Source of the DNA: a candidate division TA06 bacterium DG_78
GTDB taxonomy: Bacteria > Hydrothermota > Tepidihabitantia > SM23-42
NCBI GenBank assembly: GCA_001303225.1
Contig: LJNI01000001.1
Coordinates: 1-22,454 of the forward strand
Length of the DNA: 22,454 nt
Direction of reading: 5' to 3'
How positions within the stretch are numbered: the first letter of the stretch is position 1; each line of letters starts with the position of its first letter. This document shows positions 100 to 16,395 of this stretch, in pieces. The notes under the pieces are model-generated. The model made no database searches, was not told the DNA's origin, and saw only the letters and a program-made list of their open reading frames with translations. The position numbers and the translations under genes were made by a program.

Positions 100-2289
100 C
101 TACGACTGCTTGGATTCTTTCCTTTTAAGAATATCTTGCGCAGTCGCGGCAACGAAATGATCTCTATGTCCAGCAGCATCGTGGAGTGCCTGGAGAGCCT
201 TGGGACTTCCAATTTTTGTTAAAGCATTAAGAACTGCTGCCTTCGTTGGTTTCAGCAGGTCTCCTTTGAAAAATGCGCCTTCGTTCAGCACCTCAACCAA
301 GGAATCAACTACAGTATCATCTCCCACCTGTCCGAGGACCTCAATAATTTCACACCTCATTTGTTCCTCTTTTTTATCAGGAATACCCTTACGAGATTTC
401 AACCACTTTGGTATTTCGCCAATTTTATGTTTTACATCATCACGTTCCAAAAACTTCATTGCCTCGATAACGACTGCATGATGCTTACTGTCGAGAGCCT
501 TTTTGATGTACTCATTCACACCTGGACCACCAATCTTATGAAGAGCATCTACTGCCTCTAACTGTACCCGCTCCTCACGATCATCGAGCAAACGACCGAT
601 ATCATCGATAGCACTATGTGCTTTCATCTCACCTAATATAAAAGCGCCATTCCGTCGAATATACCACTCACGACTCGAGAGTAGTTTCTTTATTTCGGCA
701 ACTGCTGGTTCACCAACTTTCACGAGAACATCGAGCATCTTCATGCGTACCGAACGATCCTCTGTTTCTTTGAGTGTTTCAATCAAGAGAGACAGCGAAG
801 AATCAGAAAGAGAAATGAGCGCATCCCTCGCGGCGACAAACGTTCCTGGATCCCAGAGCAAGGATATCAACTCAGCAACGTAGTTTATATCTCTGAGTTC
901 ATTAATTGTTCTGATGATGAGATTCTTCTTTTCCAAAAAGGCTGCTTCTTTACGCATTAAATGTTTACCAAATTTTCTAGAAATGAATTGTACGACATCA
1001 TCTCTATGAAGTTTATGTGACGTCAAATATAGATGTTTAATCGCTTCAGTAATTTTTTTAAATGTCGACATTTCTGTCTCTTTATCAGCCATGGTATCAA
1101 AACGATCAGCCAGTAATCGAATTAAATCGTAATTCTCCCGTTCGAAAAGGTGCTCGGCAAACTCCATGAGACTATCAATAGCTTTATTCCTTTCTTCGTG
1201 CGAAGGATCACGTAGTTTGGGAAAAAACTTCCTCATCTCTGCTTCCAAACTTTTGATCGAAATTTTATCTAAATCTTTTGGTGATGCCGTTGCCTTCAAT
1301 TCGCTCATCAATCGCGTCGCTATTTTTTCAAAATCTATTTGCGGAACGTTTACCCTCAGTGAGGATAAAATTGCCGGGAGCCGTGCGCCCGTTACATTTT
1401 TTAAAATATCAATGACCTCTTCATCATCCATCGGCGCTTTCTCTTTAGCCTTTGTCGCTATGATGTCGATAATATCTTGATCAGACATCGTTGGCACGAG
1501 CGTCCTAAAGAGGGTAGCAAGTTTCTTATTCTCTGCTCGATATTTTATGATGTTCTTTTTAATGTTTGGAGATAAAACAGCGAGCATACGAGAAAATACT
1601 AGTGAATACTCGTCCCACCTGTCTTCCCCATACTGATCGGCAACCATAAATGCGAGTTGCTCCATCCCACTGACGATCTTCTCTGTCTGTTCCTCAGCTG
1701 CTTCGCTTCCAGCAACACCGATACCAGCGAGAAACTTACCTAATTCCTTTTTTCTCTCTTCATCAGTCATAGTGGTTTGCGATGCCACGAGCGACTCAAG
1801 AAAGTATTCCCAGTTGATACTACCTCCACCAAGGCCCTCACCATCCTTAGAAACAACACCAACTTCATACTTATTAATTGCAATGCCGGTAATACCTTTC
1901 GATCTCATCAAGGTTTCAATATCACCATAGTCAGTAAGATCCGCTGCGGTTGCTGCCATTGCTGAGAAAAATTCTTTAATATCGTTCTCCGATGCATCGA
2001 CGCTAAATGTTATACTCTTTATTCCAAGTCGTGTAAACCTGTCTACTACACTCCGTACAATAGGTAATCGTTTGGGAGGATAGCGTATCTCCTCGATCAT
2101 GATGTTTTTTTCTATAAGAATTAATGAAATCGATTCTTTCTCGATTGGTATTTCTTTAAGCAAAACATTGAGCCGTTGTACAACCGGCATCAATGAAGGA
2201 TGCCCCTTTGGGTAAGTGCGAGCAATATTCATACCCAATCCAACTTGTTTAATTAAATCAATGTGGAACTCAGATAATTGTTCAGCCAT
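100..2289 (-). CDS. HEAT-repeat protein, last gene of cyclase operon
   Basis: A 729-residue protein with no signal peptide or membrane segment, so probably cytosolic. The first ~130 residues form a compact domain beginning with a helix that contains the YPKGHPS segment near residue 26, a pattern I associate with N-terminal domains of signalling and HEAT proteins; its function is unknown. The middle (about 150-460) is helical and charged. From about 470 to the end there are repeated HEAT-like helix pairs with recurring patterns such as VGEPAV, IGGPGV and IGSPKA between hydrophobic helices, which fits a protein-binding solenoid. The ATG overlaps the stop codon of the small cyclase gene by one base (TAATG), so translation is probably coupled. 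It may be a scaffold or output partner of the two cyclase-domain proteins; that role is inferred from position only. Confidence 0.8.
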   Translation of the reverse strand: MAEQLSEFHIDLIKQVGLGMNIARTYPKGHPSLMPVVQRLNVLLKEIPIEKESISLILIEKNIMIEEIRYPPKRLPIVRSVVDRFTRLGIKSITFSVDASENDIKEFFSAMAATAADLTDYGDIETLMRSKGITGIAINKYEVGVVSKDGEGLGGGSINWEYFLESLVASQTTMTDEERKKELGKFLAGIGVAGSEAAEEQTEKIVSGMEQLAFMVADQYGEDRWDEYSLVFSRMLAVLSPNIKKNIIKYRAENKKLATLFRTLVPTMSDQDIIDIIATKAKEKAPMDDEEVIDILKNVTGARLPAILSSLRVNVPQIDFEKIATRLMSELKATASPKDLDKISIKSLEAEMRKFFPKLRDPSHEERNKAIDSLMEFAEHLFERENYDLIRLLADRFDTMADKETEMSTFKKITEAIKHLYLTSHKLHRDDVVQFISRKFGKHLMRKEAAFLEKKNLIIRTINELRDINYVAELISLLWDPGTFVAARDALISLSDSSLSLLIETLKETEDRSVRMKMLDVLVKVGEPAVAEIKKLLSSREWYIRRNGAFILGEMKAHSAIDDIGRLLDDREERVQLEAVDALHKIGGPGVNEYIKKALDSKHHAVVIEAMKFLERDDVKHKIGEIPKWLKSRKGIPDKKEEQMRCEIIEVLGQVGDDTVVDSLVEVLNEGAFFKGDLLKPTKAAVLNALTKIGSPKALQALHDAAGHRDHFVAATAQDILKRKESKQS

Positions 2290-2936
2290 TATGCCCTCAA
2301 TTTAAGTTTGTACTCATAGGCTTTTACTGTCAAATTATCTTTGACAAATTCGCCTACTTCTCGATAACTGAAAAATGCCTTGGTCTCCCGATATAAATTT
2401 TCACCAACGAGAAGCGTATTCGTCTCTGCGTTTTTTTGTAAAACCTGGCTTTTGCTAAAACCATCGGTAATGATTAACGCATTACGTATATCATCTTTTA
2501 TATTAAACACTGAAGCAGGCTCGATTTCGATCCCGACTTTTAACCCTATGGGATTTTTGAGATACTCTTTTTTATTGCATTCGAATAACGTATTAAACAT
2601 CTCTTCAGCTGCAAGGACTGCCATATGAGGTGCAAATCCCGACTCTTTACGCAGCCCAAAGATACTCACCACCTCGTCACCGATGATCTGGTAAAGAGTT
2701 CCCTTATACGACTCTATTATCTTTGAAAAAATACCAAAAACCTCATTAAGAAATGTCATGACATCCTCAGCAATCATTTCCTCACTCATTGTTGTAAAGC
2801 CTGATAGATCAGCTCTTAAGAATGTCATCCGCACATCTTTAAACGGCAATGTTTCATAATTACCTTGAACAATACCACACCAGGGACAAAAATTTATGGA
2901 TTGTTCAATTTCTTTACCACAATTTGAACATTTCAT
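2289..2936 (-). CDS. Small zinc-ribbon + class III nucleotidyl cyclase-domain protein
   Basis: 215 residues. An N-terminal zinc ribbon (C3, C6, C17, C20) is followed by a class III adenylate/guanylate cyclase homology domain from about residue 35. Both metal-binding aspartates are visible: D43 in RADLSGFT and D87 in IIGDEVVSIFG. The transition-state Asn and Arg normally found in the GDxxNxxxRL segment are replaced by S161 and V165, and the purine-contacting Lys position holds Q83. A homodimer therefore should not have a complete active site. The large cyclase protein encoded two bases upstream has the opposite pattern, so this chain may act like the C1 half of a heterodimer. It could also be a regulatory pseudo-cyclase. 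The gap to the upstream gene is 2 nt and the overlap with the downstream gene is 1 nt, so the three genes are almost certainly co-transcribed. Confidence 0.85.
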   Translation of the reverse strand: MKCSNCGKEIEQSINFCPWCGIVQGNYETLPFKDVRMTFLRADLSGFTTMSEEMIAEDVMTFLNEVFGIFSKIIESYKGTLYQIIGDEVVSIFGLRKESGFAPHMAVLAAEEMFNTLFECNKKEYLKNPIGLKVGIEIEPASVFNIKDDIRNALIITDGFSKSQVLQKNAETNTLLVGENLYRETKAFFSYREVGEFVKDNLTVKAYEYKLKLRA

Positions 2937-2938
2937 AA

Positions 2939-5900
2939 TTACATCTCCAATAGTCTAACATACTCTGGCCTCAGGGCAAAACATTGACGATGTTCTGCAT
3001 TCAACTTATTCTTCATATCATTGTATATCAATAGTGCCTTTTGTCCATAATACCGTGCTTTTTCAGTATCACCAGCCTCATTGTAGAGCTGAGAAAGTCT
3101 AAACAACACGATAGCAAATAACGGCGGTAATTTGAGCATCTCCGCAATCTTGAACGCCTTGAGCGCGTGTTTCAAAGGAGCATCCTCATCTACCAATGAC
3201 AAAAGATTAAAGCAGTGACATTCTATTTCTCTTTGTGTAAATTTCTGGGCAATCTTAAGTGCATTAGCAATATAATCTCTTGTCTTACCGAATTCTTTCC
3301 GGAAATAGTACACTATTGCTTTTTTGAGATTTATCTCAGCCAGAAGATTTTCCCGTATAAAGAATGAGATTTTCTTGTCTACAAGCTTTAAATACTTTTC
3401 TGCATTTTTGAAATTACCGTTACTGGTATATATGAGTGCAAGACCAAGCGCAGATTTGATATATGTTTCAGTGCTACCAATAGCCTCAGAAACAGTTGAA
3501 GATTCTACCAACATCGCCTCAGCCTTTCTCAAATCCCATATTTGATAATTAACATCGGCAATCAACTGTTTGAATTGAACGACCCCTCGCATATCATCAG
3601 GTGGCACAATATCTTCTAAACCATAATTCAGGTACTCTAAGGCTTGCTCATAATTACCTAAATCCCTGTGGAGGTGTGAGAGATTAAGCAGACACAGTAT
3701 CTCGCCCTCTTTTATATCATTGGCTCGAGCCGTATTCCAACTCAAATTATAATAGAGAATACTCTTCTCGTACTCGTACTTCTGTGCATAGAGAATTCCG
3801 AGATCAGCATAGAGGAGCGTCAAAATATCTGGCAATTCACCATCGCATTTATTTACCCCAGTGAGCAATGATTCCTCTGCCTCACTTAATTTATTAAGTA
3901 AGATCTGCGCATAGCCGTTACGTTCTGTGAAACTTACTTCACGCTCGAGATCCTTATCCTTCTGTGCGTCTACTAATCCTTCTGTAGCAGTTTTCACCAT
4001 CTTTTGAATATTACCCGTGATTTCATAAAGGTCGGCTAAATGTAAAAACACCTCTCTCGTTAAATCTGCTGGTACCTCATCGCCTCGTTCTTTTTTTATT
4101 TTAAGGAAAGTGTCGTAAAAAGAGAATGCCTGTTCCGTAGCGTAGAGATTTTTCGCCCGATCACCAGCGAGTTTAAAGTATGTTGCAGCCTTTTTGAAAT
4201 GATCGCATGATAAATAGTGGTGTCCCACATTTTCATAAAAATTTGATAGTTGATCTGCATAAAGTGTTTCGAAAAGTTGTGCAACATGTTGGTGAATTTC
4301 TTTTCTCTTCCTCAATGGTAAAACAGTATATGCAGCGTCTTTTAAGAGGTTATGTCGAAAAATATATACTGGGTCGTGTTCGTTTTTCGACAAGATTATA
4401 TAACCTTCGTTTATAAGATAACTGAGTTGTTCTTTTAATTGTGGTTTATCAATTAATCCCTGTAAAATTCGTAACCCAAAACTATATCCTATCACTGATG
4501 CATAGTCTATAATGAGTCGATAATCTGAAGAGAGTGAATCAATCGTTGACATAACAACACCGTATAAGTCATCAAGAAATGGCAGCCGTTTTTCTTTTTC
4601 GAGATACCAACGTCCAGACACCTCTTTTATCACTTTAGCGCGTTTAACATGTCTCAAAGCCTCTATGGCGAAGAGAGGATTACCTCCAGTCGTTCGGTAG
4701 ACAAAATCAATCAGCTTATCATCAACATCGTTGAGTGTAAACTTAACCAAATCACCAATGGCTTTTACTGATAGGGGCATAATATTCAGTTCTTCAAGTC
4801 TCGGAATAACTTCCGAGAGCGTAGCCATAGATTCCTTCGAGATATTAACCATAAGAAACATCAATGGTTCATTTTCGAGCTCGGCAAACAAGTGAGAAAC
4901 AAAATCCAGCGACATTACATCAATTCTATTGAATTCTTCAAAAACGAGAACGAGCGGTTGATTTCGGCATTCATGCCTAATCAGATTTTTGAGAGATGTG
5001 TATATTTCTTCATTAATAGAACGTATTTCATCCCCTCTGAGTCTCCTCAAATCAGTTAAAAAAAGATGTTTAATACCCTTAACATCAATCGGTGTTAACC
5101 CTTTTATATTGATAATGTCATCGATTTTCTTAGCTATTAGTTCTTTGCTGTCGAATTCGTTTAACTTAAAATAGTTTCTCAACAGAAATTTAAATGGATA
5201 ATACGGTGACTGAACTTCTGTAGAACAGTGTGTTTCAATAAAATTAATAGACTTATTTTCAATGAGATAGTTCTCTAACTCCTCCTTCAGTCTTGTCTTT
5301 CCAATACCCATCTGACCTCGAATAATACAGAACGTCGATTTATTCTCTTTTATGCCTTCTGTAATGGTAATCAGTTTCTTAATCTCTTCTTCGCGGCCGA
5401 ACAGTGGCATCTTTTGAGATGAAGATATTTCCATTTTCTTTTTAACGTCTTTGACTAGATAGACATCAACTTTAGCAATTCGTCCCTTAACACTACGTTC
5501 ACCGAGATGCTCGACATCAACGTATTCGCGCACTTTGTCGTACGTATTTTGACTCATAATAATTTCATGTGGCGGACATATTTCAGCGAGACGGCACGCT
5601 GTATTAATTGTATCACCGATGACGGTGAGATAAGGGAGTTCTTTCAATACGTAACCGAAAAACGCACGACCAGTATGTAGCCCCATCGTGATGTCAACGT
5701 CATCTAATAAATCTTCAGACGATTTCTTTTTGAGCCACCAATTTTTTATACGATGAGCGCAGCGAATCGCTCGTATCGGATCATCATAGTGTGCCCTCGG
5801 TGCTCCAAAAATACCCAATATTCGATCGTCTGGGAAAATTTCGTTTAACGTACCATCGAAACTCCGTATCATATCCTCAATTTCTCTCAGACATTCACGG

Positions 5901-6124
5901 ATGTAAATCGTAGTTTTGTTATACACATCTCTATCTGTAAACTTTTCAAAACCAATAATATTTACAAAAAAAACAGAGAGTAATCTCAATTCACCACCCC
6001 AAAATTTTAAGCGGTCAGATGTTACTGTTTGTTTTGGTTCAGATATGAGTTGCGTACCACAATGGGTGCAAAAAACAGCATCTTTGAGGTTATACTGATG
6101 ATTACAGAAAGGGCATACACTCAT
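2939..6124 (-). CDS. Zinc-ribbon / class III cyclase / AAA ATPase / TPR signalling protein
   Basis: 1061 residues in a known fusion layout: zinc ribbon (C4, C7, C19, C22), class III cyclase homology domain (about 45-225), AAA-type ATPase (Walker A GQMGIGKT at 270-277, Walker B LVLVFEE at 391-397 with Glu in place of the usual Asp), then TPR-like helical repeats from about 640 to the end. In the cyclase domain the first metal Asp is replaced by N55 (VNIIGFE), while D99, T167, N174 and R178 (VIGDTINTACRL) are kept. The Lys position holds E95. The domain thus resembles the C2 half of a heterodimeric cyclase. The ATPase/TPR part probably senses a ligand or a partner protein. First gene of a three-gene operon; a consensus-like promoter and a GGTGG ribosome-binding site precede the ATG. 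Cytosolic by absence of membrane segments. Confidence 0.88.
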   Translation of the reverse strand: MSVCPFCNHQYNLKDAVFCTHCGTQLISEPKQTVTSDRLKFWGGELRLLSVFFVNIIGFEKFTDRDVYNKTTIYIRECLREIEDMIRSFDGTLNEIFPDDRILGIFGAPRAHYDDPIRAIRCAHRIKNWWLKKKSSEDLLDDVDITMGLHTGRAFFGYVLKELPYLTVIGDTINTACRLAEICPPHEIIMSQNTYDKVREYVDVEHLGERSVKGRIAKVDVYLVKDVKKKMEISSSQKMPLFGREEEIKKLITITEGIKENKSTFCIIRGQMGIGKTRLKEELENYLIENKSINFIETHCSTEVQSPYYPFKFLLRNYFKLNEFDSKELIAKKIDDIINIKGLTPIDVKGIKHLFLTDLRRLRGDEIRSINEEIYTSLKNLIRHECRNQPLVLVFEEFNRIDVMSLDFVSHLFAELENEPLMFLMVNISKESMATLSEVIPRLEELNIMPLSVKAIGDLVKFTLNDVDDKLIDFVYRTTGGNPLFAIEALRHVKRAKVIKEVSGRWYLEKEKRLPFLDDLYGVVMSTIDSLSSDYRLIIDYASVIGYSFGLRILQGLIDKPQLKEQLSYLINEGYIILSKNEHDPVYIFRHNLLKDAAYTVLPLRKRKEIHQHVAQLFETLYADQLSNFYENVGHHYLSCDHFKKAATYFKLAGDRAKNLYATEQAFSFYDTFLKIKKERGDEVPADLTREVFLHLADLYEITGNIQKMVKTATEGLVDAQKDKDLEREVSFTERNGYAQILLNKLSEAEESLLTGVNKCDGELPDILTLLYADLGILYAQKYEYEKSILYYNLSWNTARANDIKEGEILCLLNLSHLHRDLGNYEQALEYLNYGLEDIVPPDDMRGVVQFKQLIADVNYQIWDLRKAEAMLVESSTVSEAIGSTETYIKSALGLALIYTSNGNFKNAEKYLKLVDKKISFFIRENLLAEINLKKAIVYYFRKEFGKTRDYIANALKIAQKFTQREIECHCFNLLSLVDEDAPLKHALKAFKIAEMLKLPPLFAIVLFRLSQLYNEAGDTEKARYYGQKALLIYNDMKNKLNAEHRQCFALRPEYVRLLEM

Positions 6125-6183: not shown

Positions 6184-6248
6184 GATTCAAAATGAAAAAT
6201 CGATTAAATTTCATAGACTCGGGTCGTTTCACACGTGATTGACTCATC

Positions 6249-6277
6249 TTGATTTTTGGTACAGGTTTTTATATAAT
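6249..6277 (+). promoter_or_regulatory. Sigma70-type promoter of rlmN-acyP, probably leaderless
   Basis: TTGATT (6249-6254) and TATAAT (6272-6277) with a 17-bp spacer. The ATG of rlmN begins at 6287, only nine bases after the -10 box, so the transcript should start 0-4 nt before the start codon. No Shine-Dalgarno sequence can fit. Confidence 0.72.
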
Positions 6278-6286
6278 ATACCACGC

Positions 6287-7309
6287 ATGAAAAAAAATAT
6301 ACGAAGCTACTCTTTGATAAAAATGAATACGGTCATCGCTGATCTTGGTATTGAGCCGTATCGTAGTCAACAGATTTTTCAATGGATTTGGCAGAAAAAT
6401 GCCGCAGATTTTTCTGTTATGACTAATATATCAAAGGAATTAAGAAAATCTCTTTCCGAAAAATTTACTATTTCTGGTCTAAAAATAGAAAAGAAATTAT
6501 CTGCTAAGGATGGTTCAGAGAAGTTTCTATTTAGATTAGAAGACAACAATTTTGTTGAAGCAGTATTTATACCTGAAGGTAAAAGAAAAACTATCTGTGT
6601 ATCGACACAGGTTGGTTGTCCGTTAGCTTGTAAATTCTGTGCAACTGCATTAATGGGTTTCGCAAGAAACATGAAGGCATACGAAATCGCCGATGAAATT
6701 CGCATCATACAAAGGGAAAAAAAAGTAAAGATAACTAATCTAGTCTTCATGGGCATGGGTGAACCTTTATTAAATTTAAAAGAGGTTGCCGAAGCGATGG
6801 ACATCATATCATCATCGGTAGGGCTTAGTATCAGTCAGAAACGCACAACTATCTCAACGGCTGGATTGGTCGATGGTCTTGATTATCTATTAACATCGCC
6901 GTTGAAAGTTAAATTAGCAATTTCATTGAATTTCCCAAATGAAAAGGTGAGAAAAAAAATGATGCCAGTAGCTAAACAAAATCCAATTAAAGAGATACTG
7001 AAACTTGCCAGAGAATATTCTCACACAAAAAATATGGTCACATTTGAATATGTATTGATTGATAATTTAAATGACCGTTTAAAAGATGCACAAAACCTTT
7101 TAAAATTATTAAAAGGAATACCTTCTAAAATTAATCTAATACCTTATAATCCACATCCAACATTACCATATAAAAGTCCTTCACAAGAAAAAATTAAGAA
7201 ATTTCATCAATATCTTTTATTATCAAAACACACAATAACATTAAGAAAATCACGCGGTCGAGAGATTCTCGCAGGCTGTGGGCAGTTGGCAGGAGGAGTA
7301 ATAAAATGA
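6287..7309 (+). CDS. rlmN: Dual-specificity 23S rRNA (A2503)/tRNA (A37) C2-methyltransferase RlmN
   Basis: A radical-SAM enzyme that methylates C2 of adenosine in 23S rRNA and, in some bacteria, in tRNA. 340 residues from the chosen ATG, close to the family's usual length. The radical-SAM cluster motif is C111-x3-C115-x2-C118. The catalytic pair is C104 (seven residues before the cluster, as in the E. coli enzyme) and C331 in the C-terminal GREILAGCGQL. The glycine-rich FMGMGEPL motif for SAM binding is present near residue 155. A TTG at 6239 would extend the frame by 16 codons, but it lies upstream of the promoter -35 box, so ATG 6287 is preferred. The stop overlaps the start of the acylphosphatase gene (ATGA), implying translational coupling. 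The gene looks more AT-rich than the signalling genes to its left. Confidence 0.96.
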   Translation: MKKNIRSYSLIKMNTVIADLGIEPYRSQQIFQWIWQKNAADFSVMTNISKELRKSLSEKFTISGLKIEKKLSAKDGSEKFLFRLEDNNFVEAVFIPEGKRKTICVSTQVGCPLACKFCATALMGFARNMKAYEIADEIRIIQREKKVKITNLVFMGMGEPLLNLKEVAEAMDIISSSVGLSISQKRTTISTAGLVDGLDYLLTSPLKVKLAISLNFPNEKVRKKMMPVAKQNPIKEILKLAREYSHTKNMVTFEYVLIDNLNDRLKDAQNLLKLLKGIPSKINLIPYNPHPTLPYKSPSQEKIKKFHQYLLLSKHTITLRKSRGREILAGCGQLAGGVIK

Positions 7310-9674: not shown

Positions 9675-12600
9675 GTGAATTCTATTAAAAAGACAATCAT
9701 AGTAACGAAACTCCAACACCCACAAATTAAAAAAAATACACTTCGGCGTAGCCGTCTTTTAAAATCGTTAAAGGAAAAGTTAGACAGAAAGTTAATTTTA
9801 ATCAACGCTGGCGCAGGATATGGTAAAACGACGCTCCTGTCACAATTTTTATCTGAAATCAAAATTCCCTATGTATTTTACCACCTTGAAAAAACTGATG
9901 GAGAGATGAATGTATTCTTCTCTTATCTCACTGCAGGTATTAAAAGGCGCTACGCTCAATTCGGCAAACGAACAGAAAACATTCTTCAAAAACTCAAATA
10001 TCCCAATAAGTACCTCGATATAGTAGCAGGAACATTTATTAACGAAATTGTCGAATGGATTCCCAATGATTTACTCATCATACTCGATGATTACCATAAT
10101 ATCGATCCATCAACATATATTGACCAGACATTGAATTATCTTTTCAAACATGCACCACCATCGCTTCACTTCATTATATCGACACGACAGACTCCTCTCT
10201 TTTATTTATCGAAAATGAAGGCGCGACAAGAATTTTTTAAACTTTCATCCAATGATTTAAGATTTACGAACGCTGAAATAAAAAAATTACTTGAAGATAT
10301 ATATTCAATTCCACTCAACGAGCATGAACTAAAAATATTACAAAAATATTGCGAAGGATGGATAACGTCGCTGCAACTAATGCTGCAGTCATCTGCAGAT
10401 AATATTAAAGATACCTTCGATAAGCACTATACTCTCGCGGATATGAAAACCCGTCATGAGCTGCAGTCAGACTACTTCAACTACTTTGCCCAAGAGATAT
10501 ATAACCGAGAGGCAAAAGATGTACAGCAATTCATAGTTGACTGTTCTATTTTAGAGTGGCTCGATCCAGATATTTGTTACGCAGTAACTGGCCGCCGTGA
10601 TTCAAAAAATATTCTCTATGATCTTGAAGCACAGAATGCTTTCTTAAACAGAGTGTCTGATAACAGTTATCGTTTCCACAATTTATATAGGGATTTTTTG
10701 TTTTCAAAATTACCTGTATCGCGAAGAAAACAAATGTATCTAATGGTAGCACGATATCTTTTTAAGAGTGGGCAAACAGAATTTGCTGCAAATTACTATC
10801 TCCTCGCTGGGCAATATAATCAGGTGGTAGCAATTATGAGCAAAATAGGCTATAACCTTACTGATAGAGGCAAGAGTGATACAGTATGTTCCTATATTGA
10901 AAAACTTCCACAATCAATTGTTAATCATAATCCAGATGTGCTCATGATTTACGGCTATGCGCTTATGCTCAGTGGCTATCCTCATGAGGCAACAGATAAT
11001 TTGATGAATGCAATAAAATTATTTCAGAAAAAATCAAAATCATCAACTAAGCTTGCACGGGCATTTTATGAATTGGCGTCGGTTAATTTTATTGGGGGCA
11101 ATGATCAATTAGCAATGAAATGGCTCAGGAAGGCATTACAGGCATGCCCAAAGAAGAAGGATATTACCTATGCCTACATTCTTAATTCATTAGGTATTCT
11201 CTATTCGAGGCTGGGGATAAAAAAGTACGCCGATGCTGTAGAATCATTTAAACAGGCATTACACATAGTTAAAAATTATATAAAAGATGAAAGTACTGAG
11301 GCGGTTATTTATAACAATTGGGCAATGATCGAACGGAAGATGGGGAATTTACGTACTGCCTATGAAAAATCTTCAGATGCTATCTGTCTTCTCAAAAAAG
11401 AGGGCAATTTTTGTGCACAATCTGGAACAGCATTCTGTAGCGCAGCATGGTTCAGTCTCCAATTAGGGTACTTACAACAAGCCTATTCAGTACTCACTGT
11501 CGGTCTTGATATCAGTAAGAAGTATAATGATATATACTCTCAAGCAACACTCTGGCGAGGATTCTCATGGTACTTTATAGAGAGCGAAGATTTTCAGAAA
11601 GCAAAAGAGTATTTACAAAAATCTATAGAGTTCTTCCATGCAAAACAGTTTAGAACATCGTTACAGACAGCAAATCGTGATCTCTGTTTAATAAATATCG
11701 AACTCGGTCTCTTAGCAGAAGCAGAACAAAATCTATCTGCATCATGGGATATCAAGAAAACACGTGATGACGCTGATGCAATAGAGCTATTATCAGTAGA
11801 AGCAGAACTCAGAAGAGCACAGGGGAAACTGGATAGTGCCAAAAAGACATTGTGCTACGCATTACGATTAGCAAAAAAATATGGTCAAATGTTTGAAACA
11901 TTCACCATTCTACTCAGACTTGCAGATGTGTTACACGAAAGCGGGAAAATTGTTCAAGCAGAAGAATTTTTACAGCAGGCTGTAACATTGGCTTGTGAAA
12001 GGGATTATGGTTATCGGTTTGCACAGGTATTAAGAAAGAAAAGATGGATGATCGAGTGCGTTATGAAATCTGAAAAAAAATATGTACTATCAATTCTCAG
12101 TCGAGCCCGGATACCCTATCACATTGTCGAAATTTCGCTCTTCGGCAATCCTACAATTCACGTCGATGGTAAAGAAATCCGGCCGGAATCATGGAAGACT
12201 GCAAAGGCAATGAAATTATTCTGTTACCTCTGCACCAAGAGGAGAAAACCAGTCTCCAGAGATGAACTCATCGACACCCTATGGCCTAATGCCTCACTCA
12301 GGAGTGGTTCGATTAATCTAAGAAAAGCAATGCAGCATATTCGACAGGCATTTAACGAGACAATCCGTAGTGACGACAATCCACTACAATATAGAGGGAA
12401 ATTCTACACTATCTCTCCATATTTTTCAGTATTGCAAGATACTGAAGAATTTATGCACACCATCGATACAATAACACAATCAAAGCAATTCACCGAGAAA
12501 CAGCGAGATGATGTTATAAAAGCAGTAGCATTGTACGAAATTGAATTGGCAAAAGGGTGGTATGATGATTGGGTCGAAGAAATGCGTTCGTATTATAACA

Positions 12601-12869
12601 AATTGTATGAAAAATGTCTCCTCATATTGGTTGATCATTACCTCGAAAAAAATAATTGCCGAGAAAGTATTGTCTGGCTCAATAAGCTCATTACAAAGAA
12701 TTACTACGAAGAAGAGTACCATAAAAAATTGTGGACAATCTATGCACGGTTAAAAAAATTCAATGCCATAAAACAAGATTTCGTAGCATTAGAAAAAGCC
12801 TTTAAAAAAGAGATGAAGGCTCAACTCCACCCAGAAACCATTGCATTGTATAAATCTTTTATAAAATAA
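9675..12869 (+). CDS. MalT-type ATPase/TPR transcriptional activator with C-terminal winged helix and BTAD domain
   Basis: 1064 residues, starting at GTG. The first 60 residues match the MalT/LuxR-large pattern, TKLxxP followed by Walker A AGAGYGKT (45-52); Walker B is LLIILDDY (133-140). From about 360 to 800 there are TPR-like helical repeats. The C-terminus differs from MalT: instead of a LuxR helix-turn-helix there is an OmpR/SARP-like winged helix (about 810-910, including SRDELIDTLWP and SGSINLRKAMQHIRQ) followed by a bacterial transcriptional activator domain (BTAD, about 915-1060). Such proteins bind an effector with the TPR/ATPase part and activate neighbouring genes. The two secreted-protein genes lie immediately downstream on the same strand, and SARP-style direct repeats are found before them. 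No membrane segments. The effector is unknown. Confidence 0.9.
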   Translation: MNSIKKTIIVTKLQHPQIKKNTLRRSRLLKSLKEKLDRKLILINAGAGYGKTTLLSQFLSEIKIPYVFYHLEKTDGEMNVFFSYLTAGIKRRYAQFGKRTENILQKLKYPNKYLDIVAGTFINEIVEWIPNDLLIILDDYHNIDPSTYIDQTLNYLFKHAPPSLHFIISTRQTPLFYLSKMKARQEFFKLSSNDLRFTNAEIKKLLEDIYSIPLNEHELKILQKYCEGWITSLQLMLQSSADNIKDTFDKHYTLADMKTRHELQSDYFNYFAQEIYNREAKDVQQFIVDCSILEWLDPDICYAVTGRRDSKNILYDLEAQNAFLNRVSDNSYRFHNLYRDFLFSKLPVSRRKQMYLMVARYLFKSGQTEFAANYYLLAGQYNQVVAIMSKIGYNLTDRGKSDTVCSYIEKLPQSIVNHNPDVLMIYGYALMLSGYPHEATDNLMNAIKLFQKKSKSSTKLARAFYELASVNFIGGNDQLAMKWLRKALQACPKKKDITYAYILNSLGILYSRLGIKKYADAVESFKQALHIVKNYIKDESTEAVIYNNWAMIERKMGNLRTAYEKSSDAICLLKKEGNFCAQSGTAFCSAAWFSLQLGYLQQAYSVLTVGLDISKKYNDIYSQATLWRGFSWYFIESEDFQKAKEYLQKSIEFFHAKQFRTSLQTANRDLCLINIELGLLAEAEQNLSASWDIKKTRDDADAIELLSVEAELRRAQGKLDSAKKTLCYALRLAKKYGQMFETFTILLRLADVLHESGKIVQAEEFLQQAVTLACERDYGYRFAQVLRKKRWMIECVMKSEKKYVLSILSRARIPYHIVEISLFGNPTIHVDGKEIRPESWKTAKAMKLFCYLCTKRRKPVSRDELIDTLWPNASLRSGSINLRKAMQHIRQAFNETIRSDDNPLQYRGKFYTISPYFSVLQDTEEFMHTIDTITQSKQFTEKQRDDVIKAVALYEIELAKGWYDDWVEEMRSYYNKLYEKCLLILVDHYLEKNNCRESIVWLNKLITKNYYEEEYHKKLWTIYARLKKFNAIKQDFVALEKAFKKEMKAQLHPETIALYKSFIK

Positions 12870-12895: not shown

Positions 12896-12936
12896 GTGTG
12901 AATTGTAGTGTATAAATTTCACACTACAATTCACAC
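12896..12936 (+). promoter_or_regulatory. Perfect 16-bp inverted repeat (operator or terminator hairpin)
   Basis: The arms at 12896-12911 and 12921-12936 are perfectly complementary, with a 9-base loop. It lies 26 bp after the stop codon of the BTAD regulator. No T-run follows the right arm (TAATTTCAC), so it is a poor standard terminator. The right arm overlaps where the -35 box of the next promoter should be, which makes an operator equally plausible. Confidence 0.6.
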
Positions 12937-12961
12937 TAATTTCACATGCAATTACTATAAT
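12917..12961 (+). promoter_or_regulatory. Candidate activator-dependent promoter with three TTCACA direct repeats
   Basis: TTCACA occurs at 12918-12923, 12930-12935 and 12941-12946, that is at steps of 12 and 11 bp on one face of the helix. TATAAT follows at 12956-12961, nine bases after the last repeat. There is no good -35 box at the normal distance. SARP/BTAD activators are known to bind direct repeats at 11-bp steps ending about 8 bp upstream of the -10 box, and such a regulator is encoded directly upstream. The expected transcript start is near 12968. Confidence 0.5.
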
Positions 12962-12991
12962 GGCACAGAGAATAAAAAGGAGGAAAAAATG

Positions 12992-14608
12992 ATGAAACTT
13001 GTTCTCATCCTAACTATATGCGGTCTCTGCATGGTCTATGCAGAGAATTATCGCAATTCTGAGTGCTCTGTAAAAATAACACCAGAATCTCCCTCAACAA
13101 GAGGGATAATTGCCGAGGTCGGAGGTGTCAACTCAATACTTGGCTCAGCAGGAAAGAATATATGTGTCGATGCAAATGGTGCAGATATTGCAGTCATGTA
13201 TGGATCTCCATCTGAACCATATGATGCATATCATCCTTTTGGGGGCGTCTTTGCTGCCTATTCAACAAATCAAGGGGAAACATGGAATCATTACGGTCCG
13301 TTCAGTACAACATCAGCTCTTCTGCGTTTCATCTGTCCTGGTATTGATGGCGCGACAAATTTCTCGCAAAACAGAGAGGAACTCTATTCTGTATGGCAGG
13401 AGGATATTAATGGTACATATGTGATGAACTGGGGTACTCACATCTTAACACAACTTAGCGAAGATTGCTCGATGCCCTGCATTGGTGTAAATCCGGACGA
13501 TCCGCTGCATGTCATGGTTACTGCATCCAATGGTGCGAATTACACCTGGATATCTACTGACGGTGGATATACGTGGAGTGACACAATTATGGTTACTAAT
13601 TCTGGACATGCTGGTCATTTTCGCTGGGGTAGTGGTGATTATGCATTTTTTACCTATCACGATGATTACAATGGTGATGAATACCCATACTATGTTGAAT
13701 CGACAGATGGTGGCTATACCTGGACTTCACCAGCTCTACTACCAGCAATCGGCTCGAATTTTTTATACTGGTCAGAATTTGACTGTGAGGTTATCGATGA
13801 TCACCCGTTCGCAGTCTATGATGATCCAGAAGGTGTGATGCAGTTATTCTATCCTGATCCTGATAATCCTGGTAGCCCAGGAGCATGGAACTGGATAGCA
13901 CTCGATGTCGACTCAATTGGCACCGGAGTATTTAGCTATCAGGATACGACGTGGATGACAATGGTTTTTCATTATCCGAGCATTGCGTACGACTCTGATC
14001 ATGAAATTATTCTCATAACCTACGAGGGGTTCTATGAAGTAACACCGCCTCCTGTTGGATGGATTGATGGCTGTTATCTTGGTGGTATTGTCTCGATTGA
14101 CCACGGAAGAACCTGGTGTCCAACACGACCCTTATCTGAACCTGTTGGTGGTCCAAATGAAAATCCAAGTGAGACTGCTCACCGTCTCGTTACAATTAAT
14201 GATACAACGTACTGTTACTCGACCTGGACCGATGCTGGCTCTAGTTCAATTGGTAACCAATACTTTGAGCTCGGTGTTGTCTTACCAATAGATCTCGATG
14301 GGTGGAATCCAGGTGTCGCAGAAAATGATAGAGGAATACGTAGTGCTCCTAATACTAATCTCACTGTTTTCCCATCAGTCGTGAATCACAGTTGCTGTGT
14401 TTCATTCAATATCTCACAACCAGGAATTGGTAATATCAACTTCTTTGATGCTTCTGGTAGATTAGCAAAAGTAGTGTACAGCGGCTACTTAAAGAGCGGT
14501 TATCACAACTACGACATTACCACATCCGACCTCCCAAACGGCATCTACATGGTAGTATTAAAATCAGACAGTGCTCAGGATGCAGCAAAATTGATTAAAA
14601 TGCGTTAA
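12992..14608 (+). CDS. Secreted Asp-box (BNR) repeat protein with C-terminal sorting-like tail, copy 1
   Basis: 538 residues. A typical signal peptide (MKLVLILTICGLCMVYA) is followed by a likely signal peptidase I site before ENYRN; no lipobox. Four Asp-box motifs are visible: STNQGETW near 91, two copies of STDGGYTW near 187 and 236, and SIDHGRTW near 367. These are typical of sialidase-like beta-propellers. The last ~80 residues resemble Por-secretion/FlgD-like tails (VFPSVV, FFDASGRL, LPNGIYMVVLKSD, ending in KLIKMR), so the protein is probably exported and surface-anchored or released. A Cys pair (SCCVSF) sits in the first tail strand. I cannot identify a sialidase catalytic set, so enzymatic activity is unsupported. 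AGGAGG at 12978-12983 gives an 8-nt spacing to this ATG; the ATG at 12989 is an alternative. The downstream gene is a paralogue. Confidence 0.87.
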   Translation: MKLVLILTICGLCMVYAENYRNSECSVKITPESPSTRGIIAEVGGVNSILGSAGKNICVDANGADIAVMYGSPSEPYDAYHPFGGVFAAYSTNQGETWNHYGPFSTTSALLRFICPGIDGATNFSQNREELYSVWQEDINGTYVMNWGTHILTQLSEDCSMPCIGVNPDDPLHVMVTASNGANYTWISTDGGYTWSDTIMVTNSGHAGHFRWGSGDYAFFTYHDDYNGDEYPYYVESTDGGYTWTSPALLPAIGSNFLYWSEFDCEVIDDHPFAVYDDPEGVMQLFYPDPDNPGSPGAWNWIALDVDSIGTGVFSYQDTTWMTMVFHYPSIAYDSDHEIILITYEGFYEVTPPPVGWIDGCYLGGIVSIDHGRTWCPTRPLSEPVGGPNENPSETAHRLVTINDTTYCYSTWTDAGSSSIGNQYFELGVVLPIDLDGWNPGVAENDRGIRSAPNTNLTVFPSVVNHSCCVSFNISQPGIGNINFFDASGRLAKVVYSGYLKSGYHNYDITTSDLPNGIYMVVLKSDSAQDAAKLIKMR

Positions 14609-14619
14609 ATCAATAAGTG

Positions 14620-14645
14620 AGGGAGGAACAATACTGTTCCTCCCT
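14620..14645 (+). terminator. Hairpin terminator after secreted protein copy 1
   Basis: An 11-bp perfect stem (arms 14620-14630 and 14635-14645, loop ATAC) is followed by TTATA. It starts 11 bp after the stop codon and shares GGGAGGAACA with the terminator after the second paralogue. The T-run is short, so read-through into copy 2 is likely. Confidence 0.7.
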
Positions 14646-14670
14646 TTATAAAAATGAAAGGATGAATAAA

Positions 14671-16395
14671 ATGAAGAAAGTCAGTATAATTTTTATATTG
14701 TTTAGTCTCTGCATGGCAAATGCAGATGTTTCACCGCAAATTTTGCTTATGGAGGATAGTTTTACGCAATCTAAACGTTCAGTTCAGAGACTGCCTGAAT
14801 ATTTTCCGAGTAGAACATCGATTGCTGAAGTTGGCGATGTCAGGTCAATACTAGGCACAGCAGGTAAGAACATTTGGGTGGGATCAAATGGTAATACCAT
14901 TGCTGTAATGTATGGACCACCTTCTGCACCTTATGATCCTAACCAGCCATTTGATGGTGTTTGGATTTGCTGTTCAACTGATAGGGGCGCGTACTGGAAT
15001 AATTATGGCGCAGTTAGTACCCTTTTACCGCTGAGAAGAATATATCCTGGTGTTGATGGTTATGAAGATACCCACGGCTACCTCTGTTATTTTACCTGGC
15101 AAGAGAATCCACTTGGTTATATACTAAATCTTGGGTGTGTGATTGTTGATTATGTACCGATACCGCCACATTTTCCAATTCCACCCACCATATTGCCAAA
15201 TGATGTCTGTCCATGGATGCTCTGCCCAGCAGTAAACCCAGATGATAATATGCATGCTATGATAACCGCCTGGAGTTATTTGCTTGATGGTAATCGTGCC
15301 AATTATTGCTGGCATACAACTAATGGTGGTAATACCTGGAGCGATCCAATCCAGGTAACTCCACCGGTCGATCAAACTCTTGGCGGTGCCGGACATTTTA
15401 GATGGGGCACTGGGGGTTATGGTTTTTTTACTTACCATGATTCATTAGGTGGTGTTGAGTATCCATATTATGTAGAGTCAACTGATTATGGATATACCTG
15501 GAGTGTACCAGCGACTCTGCCAGCAATCACTTCCACTCAATTCTGGTGGCATGAATTTGACTGTGAGGTCATTAATGATAAACCTTTTGCAGTACATAAT
15601 GATTTAGATGCATCTGGTGTCATGCAGTTATTCTATCCTGATCCTGATGACCCCGGAAGCCCAGGAGCATGGAATTGGACAGCACTCGATATAGACTCAG
15701 TAGGTTCAGAAACATTTGCCTATCAGGGTACAACATGGACGACCACGGTTATTCAGTATCCGAGTGTAGCATTTAACCCGGACTTTGATGCCATTCTTGT
15801 GAGTTACAAGGCAAGTTATGAAATAACTCCACCACCCCCTGGCTGGACCGATGGTAATTATCTGGCCGGCATTGTATCAATCGACAGTGGAAGGACCTGG
15901 TACCCAACCAGACCTCTGTCTGGCCCACTGCTCCAGACTGTTGGTGGCCCAATTGAAACTGCACACCGCCTCGTCACAACCAATGATACTACTTACTGCT
16001 ATTCTACCTGGACTGATGCTGATTATGGTTTCATTGGCAATCAATATTTTGAACTGGGTATTGTTCAGACAATCGATGCATCGATTTTCGGTCCAGGCTA
16101 TGGGATTGAAGAGTATAACAATGATCCTGTTTCTATTCCGCTCAACTTGCACGTCTTCCCAACGGTTGTGTGTAATGCCTGCTGTGTTTCATTTAACATG
16201 CCGAAACAGGGTGAGGGCAGTCTCAAATTATTCGATGCCACAGGAAGATTAGTAAAAACAATATATACAGGATACTTGAAAAGTGGATTCCACAATCTTG
16301 ACGTCACCACATCAGAACTTCCCAATGGTGTATATATGATAGTACTCGATTCAGAAACTTCGCAGGAAACAGCAAAGATTATTAAGATGCATTAA
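14671..16395 (+). CDS. Secreted Asp-box (BNR) repeat protein with C-terminal sorting-like tail, copy 2
   Basis: 574 residues and clearly a tandem paralogue of the preceding gene, with long conserved blocks (IAEVG, FDCEVI, MQLFYPDPD, PGSPGAWNW, ETAHRLVT). The signal peptide MKKVSIIFILFSLCMANA is followed by DVSPQ. Asp-box-type motifs are at about 102 (STDRGAYW), 216 (TTNGGNTW), 270 (STDYGYTW) and 403 (SIDSGRTW). The C-terminal tail (VFPTVV, ACCVSF, LFDATGRL, LPNGVYMIVLDSE, KIIKMH) matches copy 1, including the Cys pair. The copy is longer, mainly through a proline-rich insertion near 165-185 (IPPHFPIPPTILP) and a longer N-terminus. AAAGGA eight bases upstream supports the ATG at 14671; a start inside the preceding hairpin is unlikely. 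The gene may be transcribed by read-through from copy 1, since no strong promoter is visible in the 62-bp gap. Confidence 0.87.
   Translation: MKKVSIIFILFSLCMANADVSPQILLMEDSFTQSKRSVQRLPEYFPSRTSIAEVGDVRSILGTAGKNIWVGSNGNTIAVMYGPPSAPYDPNQPFDGVWICCSTDRGAYWNNYGAVSTLLPLRRIYPGVDGYEDTHGYLCYFTWQENPLGYILNLGCVIVDYVPIPPHFPIPPTILPNDVCPWMLCPAVNPDDNMHAMITAWSYLLDGNRANYCWHTTNGGNTWSDPIQVTPPVDQTLGGAGHFRWGTGGYGFFTYHDSLGGVEYPYYVESTDYGYTWSVPATLPAITSTQFWWHEFDCEVINDKPFAVHNDLDASGVMQLFYPDPDDPGSPGAWNWTALDIDSVGSETFAYQGTTWTTTVIQYPSVAFNPDFDAILVSYKASYEITPPPPGWTDGNYLAGIVSIDSGRTWYPTRPLSGPLLQTVGGPIETAHRLVTTNDTTYCYSTWTDADYGFIGNQYFELGIVQTIDASIFGPGYGIEEYNNDPVSIPLNLHVFPTVVCNACCVSFNMPKQGEGSLKLFDATGRLVKTIYTGYLKSGFHNLDVTTSELPNGVYMIVLDSETSQETAKIIKMH

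Follow-up and report, generated by a model that had tools for sequence, protein, structure and literature searches.

A putative two-gene class III nucleotide cyclase with a HEAT-repeat partner in a candidate division TA06 bacterium

Class III nucleotide cyclases form their active sites between two domains, and two neighbouring genes of the candidate division TA06 bacterium DG_78 raise the question of whether two degenerate domains, each encoded by its own gene and each short of a different part of the catalytic set, could make up one complete site between them. The genes lie on contig LJNI01000001.1 (assembly GCA_001303225.1), of which we analysed positions 1 to 22,454, a stretch of 22,454 nucleotides (nt) that is here called the window. 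With a third gene they form a trio, the products of which we label C2 (1061 amino acids, aa), C1 (215 aa) and HEAT (a HEAT-repeat protein of 729 aa). The host genome is a bin of 2.09 Mb in 173 contigs, and its named relatives are candidate division WOR-3 or Candidatus Stahlbacteria.

An earlier, sequence-only reading of the window had suggested that each homodimer should be dead and that the heterodimer could form one complete site. An active site of this class is shared by two domains; in the window, the C1-C2 pair brings together a complete metal and Asn/Arg set, and neither homodimer does. As that reading had asked of related genomes, the same gene pair with the complementary pattern recurs elsewhere, in 24 close loci, in eight distant loci and in alignments of 121 C1 and about 112 C2 rows, and its heterodimer interpretation is supported by the comparisons reported here. 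We consider it probable that C1 and C2 pair, obligately or at least by preference, as unlike subunits of a class III nucleotide cyclase that has a single composite site, and the layout is best read as resembling that of the mammalian soluble adenylyl cyclase (sAC), with C1 placed on a chain of its own.

Complementary residues of C1 and C2

The genes of the trio, their domains and the codons in question are as follows.

2939..6124, minus strand: C2 gene, first of the trio (zinc ribbon, class III cyclase domain, AAA ATPase and TPR), 1061 aa
6047..6124, minus strand: zinc ribbon of C2, residues 1-26 (C4, C7, C19, C22)
5444..5992, minus strand: cyclase domain of C2, residues 45-227 (N55, E95, D99, T167, N174, R178, K213)
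5960..5962, minus strand: codon of C2 N55, where the first metal Asp is lost
5828-5830: codon of C2 D99, the second metal Asp
5591..5605, minus strand: codons of C2 N174 to R178, with the transition-state Asn and Arg kept
4856..5407, minus strand: AAA_16 ATPase domain of C2, residues 240-423
3005..4207, minus strand: TPR region of C2, limits approximate, the Pfam TPR stretches lying within residues 767-1031
2289..2936, minus strand: C1 gene (zinc ribbon and class III cyclase domain), 215 aa
2808..2810, minus strand: codon of C1 D43, the first metal Asp, kept
2676..2678, minus strand: codon of C1 D87, the second metal Asp, kept
2442..2456, minus strand: codons of C1 S161 to V165, with the Asn and Arg positions lost
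100..2289, minus strand: HEAT gene, third of the trio, with a conserved N-terminal region, 729 aa

The C2 and C1 genes are spaced by 2 nt and C1 and HEAT overlap by one base. Each of the two cyclase proteins carries a four-cysteine zinc ribbon, the cysteines of the C2 ribbon being invariant in 16 aligned rows, and each matches Pfam Guanylate_cyc above the cut-off; C2 also matches Pfam AAA_16 and TPR. Coordinates, Pfam matches and a re-reading of the translations agree with the sequence-only reading on the reading frames, their spacing, the shared zinc ribbons, the AAA/TPR module of C2 and the residues on which it built (D43, D87, S161 and V165 in C1; N55, N174 and R178 in C2). To these we add D99, Glu95 and Thr167 of C2 and the constant third member, HEAT. 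The predicted structures, with a mean predicted local distance difference test score (pLDDT) of 86.7 for C1 and of 79.9 for residues 1-240 of C2, each resemble class III cyclases over the whole domain, and both domains have the class III fold, though these matches do not separate C1-type from C2-type folds. Against the TOMM kinase/cyclase fusion family (TIGR03903) C2 reaches 157.2 bits, below the curated cut-off of 705.75 bits.

In the window, C1 has D43 and D87, with S161 and V165 at the Asn and Arg positions, and C2 has N55 at the first metal position along with D99, T167, N174 and R178. No single chain thus holds the Asp pair together with Asn and Arg, C1 being without the latter two and C2 without the first Asp; taken together, the two chains are complete. 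The roles given to the metal Asp, Arg and Lys follow passages of PMC3591389 on soluble guanylyl cyclase and adenylyl cyclase, in which both metal Asp belong to one subunit and the Arg and Lys to its partner; the remaining positions carry their usual names.

The pattern was followed in two alignments, one of C1 with 120 listed homologues of 138 found, the other of C2 with 114 of 120 listed homologues, of 147 found, P0235-P0240 having been excluded as remote; one of the 114 (P0121) is the window's own protein, and the distribution given is that across the genomes and clusters examined here. Among C1 rows with a letter at the position, D43 is present in 119/119 and D87 in 121/121. The Arg position holds Ile in 91 rows, Leu in 20, Val in 10 and Arg in none of the 121, Asn stands at the Asn position in six of the 121 rows, with Lys or Arg in 73, and the Thr position is aliphatic or aromatic in 118 and Ser in 3. 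In C2 it is T167, N174 and R178 that are constant (112/112 each), and the position of K213 is always Lys or Arg (113/113; Lys 104, Arg 9). The first metal position of C2 (n=111) is Asn in 79 rows, Ser in 11, Asp in 9, Gly and Gln in 5 each, and His and Arg in 1 each. Judged from these alignments and from the close and distant loci described below, the pattern is a conserved trait beyond chance rather than a quirk of one genome.

We propose that C1 would supply the metal aspartates D43 and D87, and that C2 would supply the base-facing Thr167, Asn174, Arg178 and K213, the lysine of its VKG motif. Only the C1-C2 pair would then form a complete site, and the second, degenerate interface could be structural or regulatory. 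That such a pair can work is shown by Rv1625c, of which the D300A and R376A mutants, in CqsS/LqsS chimeras, jointly restore activity according to passages of PMC4821796. The AAA/STAND-type ATPase and TPR regions of C2 are most likely its sensor for a ligand or partner and would govern the docking of C1 or the closure of the site, and HEAT, as a fixed partner, is probably a scaffold or regulator.

Two features of C2 sit uneasily with this proposal. Nine of the 111 C2s, and also that of locus L055, keep the first metal Asp as well as D99, Asn and Arg, so that a C2 homodimer could be residue-complete in those species; and D99 itself is retained in 110/111 aligned C2s of the window's family, a conservation that the heterodimer alone does not explain. 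The claim of two dead homodimers fits the window, where the set is incomplete in each, but a C2 homodimer is not short of residues in every species, and in the window's C2 family it is usually the first metal Asp alone that is lost. D99 might conceivably form a salt bridge to the basic residue at the Asn position of most C1s. Both features would also suit a C2 that is active as a homodimer, with C1 as its capping regulator or inhibitor, an arrangement that we regard as very unlikely: most C2s lack the first Asp, those of the distant loci L101, L170, L172, L182, L183 and L184, described below, lack the second, and both metal Asp are invariant in C1, which a mere cap would not need.

The trio in close and distant loci

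Is the pair a stable genetic unit? Regions around C1 were fetched in 24 genomes, 20 from the window's family and 4 from a second family of the same order. The trio is present in 20 of the 22 relatives in the window's family and in 4/4 of the second; the two without it are G013, a 53 percent complete genome, and G022, where the stretch upstream of HEAT includes 300 N letters and matches neither C1 nor C2. C1 and HEAT are adjacent in 24/24 close loci and C2 adjoins C1 in 23 of them, the contig of the remaining locus ending upstream of C1. Contig starts cut C2 in two of these loci, its frame is broken in one and HEAT is cut in at least one. The two Asp of C1 are kept in 25/25 loci (the window and the 24), and Asn and Arg in 22/22 of the close-locus C2s that show these positions; that of L055 is the single one with Asp at the first metal position. 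In L041/L063 the C2 frame is interrupted, only residues 404-1061 being in the frame found, and C1 and HEAT are intact.

Further afield, two more pairs (L101 and L105), both with HEAT downstream, were found among other cyclase matches. In both, which belong to two non-close families, a gene named from its sequence as purH-like lies directly upstream of C2. HEAT was then used as an anchor: it was searched in 147 genomes of the phylum, 54 of which gave a match at E 1e-10, and selected surroundings were inspected. The order is C2-C1-HEAT in L169 and L170 and C1-HEAT-C2 in L172, L182 and L183; L184 shows HEAT-C2 on a contig that begins just upstream of HEAT, where C1 would fall off the contig. The eight distant loci span five families (f17, f3, f26, f28 and f23) and six genera.

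The distant C1s have the metal Asp pair in 7/7, and their Asn/Arg positions read E/L in L101, L/R in L105, F/K in L169 and L170, E/Q in L172, D/D in L182 and N/D in L183. Thr and Asn are present in 8/8 of the distant C2s and Arg in 7/8, with Lys in L105. The metal positions are readable in seven of these C2s, as K/N in L101, E/L in L170, S/F in L182 and L183 and R/L in L184, with D in L105 and L in L172 at the second position. The lost positions vary between distant loci and the kept positions are nearly invariant. Across 23 C1 rows, to which the window's order contributes 16, no variation is seen at C3, C6, C17, C20, G21, D43, F47, T48, G86, D87, E88 and G94; across 23 C2 rows the constant residues are F106, G107, G152, T167, G170, N174 and the linker residue R244, and R178 is kept in all but one.

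Several distant loci fit the proposed heterodimer less well and must be set against it. The first metal position of C2 is ambiguous in L105 and L172 (Asp when gapped, Gly and Ile when ungapped); the C2 of L105 has Lys for Arg while its C1 carries Arg; in the C1 of L183 the Asn position is occupied by Asn, though the Arg position by Asp; and in those of L169 and L170 Lys takes the place of Arg. Two C1s (L172 and L182) fall below the Pfam Guanylate_cyc cut-off and for a third (L105) no match to it is listed, all three having been assigned by a home-made hidden Markov model, by motif and by gene position. Finally, a clear cyclase partner accompanies HEAT in 8/22 of the inspected stretches with a HEAT match, and none was seen within the stretch in the other 14 (L175-L181 and L185-L191).

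Other candidates were set aside. The lone cyclases L103, L104, L107, L171, L173 and L174, with no C2-type AAA or HEAT match in their stretches, are not trios. L178, L180 and L187 (family f12) were not counted, since their AAA-TPR protein (350-3529 in L178) starts with a GGDEF-like domain, named by motif, and not with a cyclase; a HEAT relative lies some genes away, and the same sensor is possibly used there with another second messenger. A C1 search of contigs returned 24 loci, 19 of WOR-3/Stahlbacteria, four of Bdellovibrionaceae and one of Nitrospirae, and the last five were dropped because the match to C1 lies within a longer cyclase frame there and no HEAT match was found. A profile search for C1 beyond the phylum, made with five divergent C1s and of limited reach, gave 23 proteins, among which the short, organism-named ones are P0242 and P0243 (WOR-3) and P0253 (Hydrothermales); some of its weaker rows also carry GAF, PAS or receiver domains. 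No C1-C2 fusion was seen, each listed frame having one cyclase match, although many stretches are short and no dedicated search was made.

The base-specifying Lys position bears on both substrate and activity. It is Gln in 112/121 C1s; in C2 it is Arg in 49, Gln in 28 and Lys in 19 of 111 rows, and Glu (Glu95) in the window, a residue found in 3/111 rows, two of which are the window's own protein counted twice. This variety, with Glu in the window, counts against the proposed cyclase in that it points to no one substrate. With the base-specifying Lys lost from most C2s and Gln in most C1s, and with no activity data found for any C1 or C2 member, one may ask whether the pair is a heterodimeric pseudo-cyclase that makes no cyclic nucleotide and whose interface, by binding nucleotide or metal, serves the ATPase/TPR module as its sensor or switch. 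We think this unlikely. The residues of the chemistry (the two Asp, Asn, Arg and the VKG Lys) are kept over phylum-scale divergence where other active-site positions drift, and the C2s of L101, L170, L172, L182, L183 and L184 have Lys at the Lys position. For a catalytic C1-C2 pair, ATP is the likelier substrate in those Lys/Thr pairs, to judge from the residues, and in the window's Glu/Thr pair GTP is also possible. Of the two possible products cAMP is likelier than cGMP, and its targets would be proteins with a cyclic nucleotide monophosphate (cNMP)-binding domain. Such domains occur in 30/31 genomes searched, with three proteins in the window's own, and also in 10/14 control genomes; being common, they lend a cyclic nucleotide product weak support.

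Descent and likeness to known heterodimeric cyclases

A tree of 71 rows (23 C1, 23 C2 and 25 other cyclases) was built with six catalytic columns removed. Its rows include the window and 15 of the 24 close loci, and the 25 comparison cyclases were picked from genome cyclase matches, not at random; 22 of them have D, D, N and R or K, and L002, L103 and L004 are without one of these. The C1s form a single clade (94/98), as do the C2s (97/90), and the two halves branch broadly alike. L105 joins the window's group in both (99/92 and 98/85) and L172 joins L182/L183 in both (95/77 and 99/79); the placement of L170 differs. The hairpin after the Lys position, counted by eye, is one residue longer in 23/23 readable C2s and in 0/23 C1s and 0/25 other cyclases. 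When sAC and PDB rows are added, the C1s remain one clade (97/97).

The likeliest history, on the strength of these trees, begins with a single ancient duplication and split inside the phylum and continues by vertical descent, with a single origin of C2 as its less secure half. On the debit side, branches are long in both trees, also where L172 and L182 meet, and the tree with sAC and PDB rows splits the C2s into four branches at an open fork with canonical cyclases. The sAC domains are not placed in that tree, the approximately unbiased (AU) test giving p 0.54 (C1) and 0.33 (C2) for shared ancestry, values that neither support nor reject it, and we do not claim descent.

Likeness to sAC (ADCY10) is found at the level of layout and residues. 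Like the trio, sAC has two unlike class III domains, C1 and C2, and in sAC the ATPase and repeat region come after the cyclase domains. The C2 domain of sAC has Asn at the first metal position (FVN), as does the window's C2, and keeps T, N and R (NKCTNR); its C1 domain has lost T, N and R (-KDLDL), the first metal Asp lying outside the fragment used. C2 as the supplier of T/N/R and C1 as that of the metal Asp is therefore the arrangement of sAC as well, as far as this fragment, without the first metal position of C1, can tell. The trio departs from sAC in placing C1 on a chain apart, 215 aa long and with a zinc ribbon of its own, and in having a HEAT protein besides; the single-chain C1+C2 form of sAC was not found in the trio loci, the genes being separate wherever both are on the contig.

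Profile searches tell the two types apart in part. The best stretch of the C1 profile is residues 40-197 of sAC, that is, its C1 domain, and the C1 half in AC5, AC8 and AC9, and its search lists the alpha subunit of soluble guanylyl cyclase (sGC) and no human sGC beta-1. The best stretch of the C2 profile in sAC is 275-418 (C2), and sGC beta-1 scores far above alpha. Two results run the other way: the C2 profile ranks VC1 (1.7e-6) over IIC2 (3.5e-5), and in AC5 and AC8 it is the C1 half that it matches best.

In sGC, according to passages of PMC3591389, the metal Asp come from alpha and Arg552 and Lys593 from beta, and the homodimers are inactive. The resemblance to C1 and C2 lies in the two separate subunits with a metal half and an Arg/Lys half. 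The differences are that C1 and C2 are bacterial, that neither has an H-NOX or PAS Pfam match at E 0.001 and that the second base position of C2 is Thr, which we take to be class IIIb-like.

Among bacterial proteins, Rv1359 is a degenerate mycobacterial class III domain without the first metal Asp and the critical Arg, and in this it is like C2 and C1; the passages of PMC3961136 that bear on it describe no complementary pair. A 2004 survey (PMC2447327) contains the words heterodimer, Rv1358, Rv1359 and Rv0891c, and it may hold an earlier heterodimer proposal for mycobacteria. In 'heterodimeric' class III cyclases, according to passages of PMC2987819, one site is active and the other degenerate and regulatory. 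PMC4886424 deals with uncharacterised cyclase-like proteins in bacteria. Among the matches listed, titles and abstract starts held no report of a C1-C2 pair; no paper pairing adenylate cyclase with WOR-3 was found, the matches for WOR-3 and cyclase being, by title, on other subjects. Text from PMC4821796 (2016) presents bacterial class III adenylyl cyclases as monomers that need homodimerization and as fundamentally unlike eukaryotic ones. A natural two-gene bacterial pair, if the heterodimer is real, would mean that the heterodimeric solution exists in bacteria too, and would offer a small soluble system that might be switched by the docking of its subunits as such; it also bears on how sAC- and sGC-like enzymes could arise by duplication and the loss of complementary halves. 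A bolder version, which we offer as improbable speculation, is a three-protein complex, old within WOR-3, in which the site would form only when C1 docks on the ATPase/TPR subunit under the control of HEAT, a bacterial two-gene version of sAC and perhaps kin to the ancestor of the fused enzyme.

Other cyclases of the genome and neighbouring genes

The window's own genome has six class III domains, that is, four besides C1 and C2, and complete canonical domains could supply Asn and Arg to C1. Might C1 pair mainly with these rather than with C2? We find this hardly credible, for in the trio loci whose contig carries both, C1 and C2 lie side by side or with HEAT alone between them, two gene orders being seen, and the trees of the two are broadly congruent.

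Two of the other cyclases, L001 and L003 (1211 and 1201 aa), are like C2 in being long frames that start with a cyclase domain, and unlike it in that a single chain holds the complete set (DKDTNR); the related P0235 and P0240 show the AAA-TPR layout, which L001 and L003 may share. L002 and L001 (contig C56, 978-1493 and 4666-5181) are neighbouring same-strand cyclase genes with frames of 1223 and 1211 aa; L002 has Asn at the first metal position and is otherwise complete (NKDTNR), L001 is complete, and by their residues the two are a possible second candidate heterodimer of this genome. L107 (contig C71, 5960-6538), about 200 aa long, is a lone cyclase in which Ala replaces the transition-state Arg (DKDTNA); the gene upstream of it is SPFH-like, and a similar gene lies beside the lone cyclases of L171 and L173.

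Upstream of the trio, on the other strand, the window carries rlmN (6239-7309), as do 14/24 of the close loci. Further along, a 1064-aa TPR protein with a weak transcriptional-regulator match at its C-terminus (9675-12869, plus strand) is followed by two proteins with sorting tails of the type IX secretion system (T9SS) type (12908-14608 and 14617-16395).

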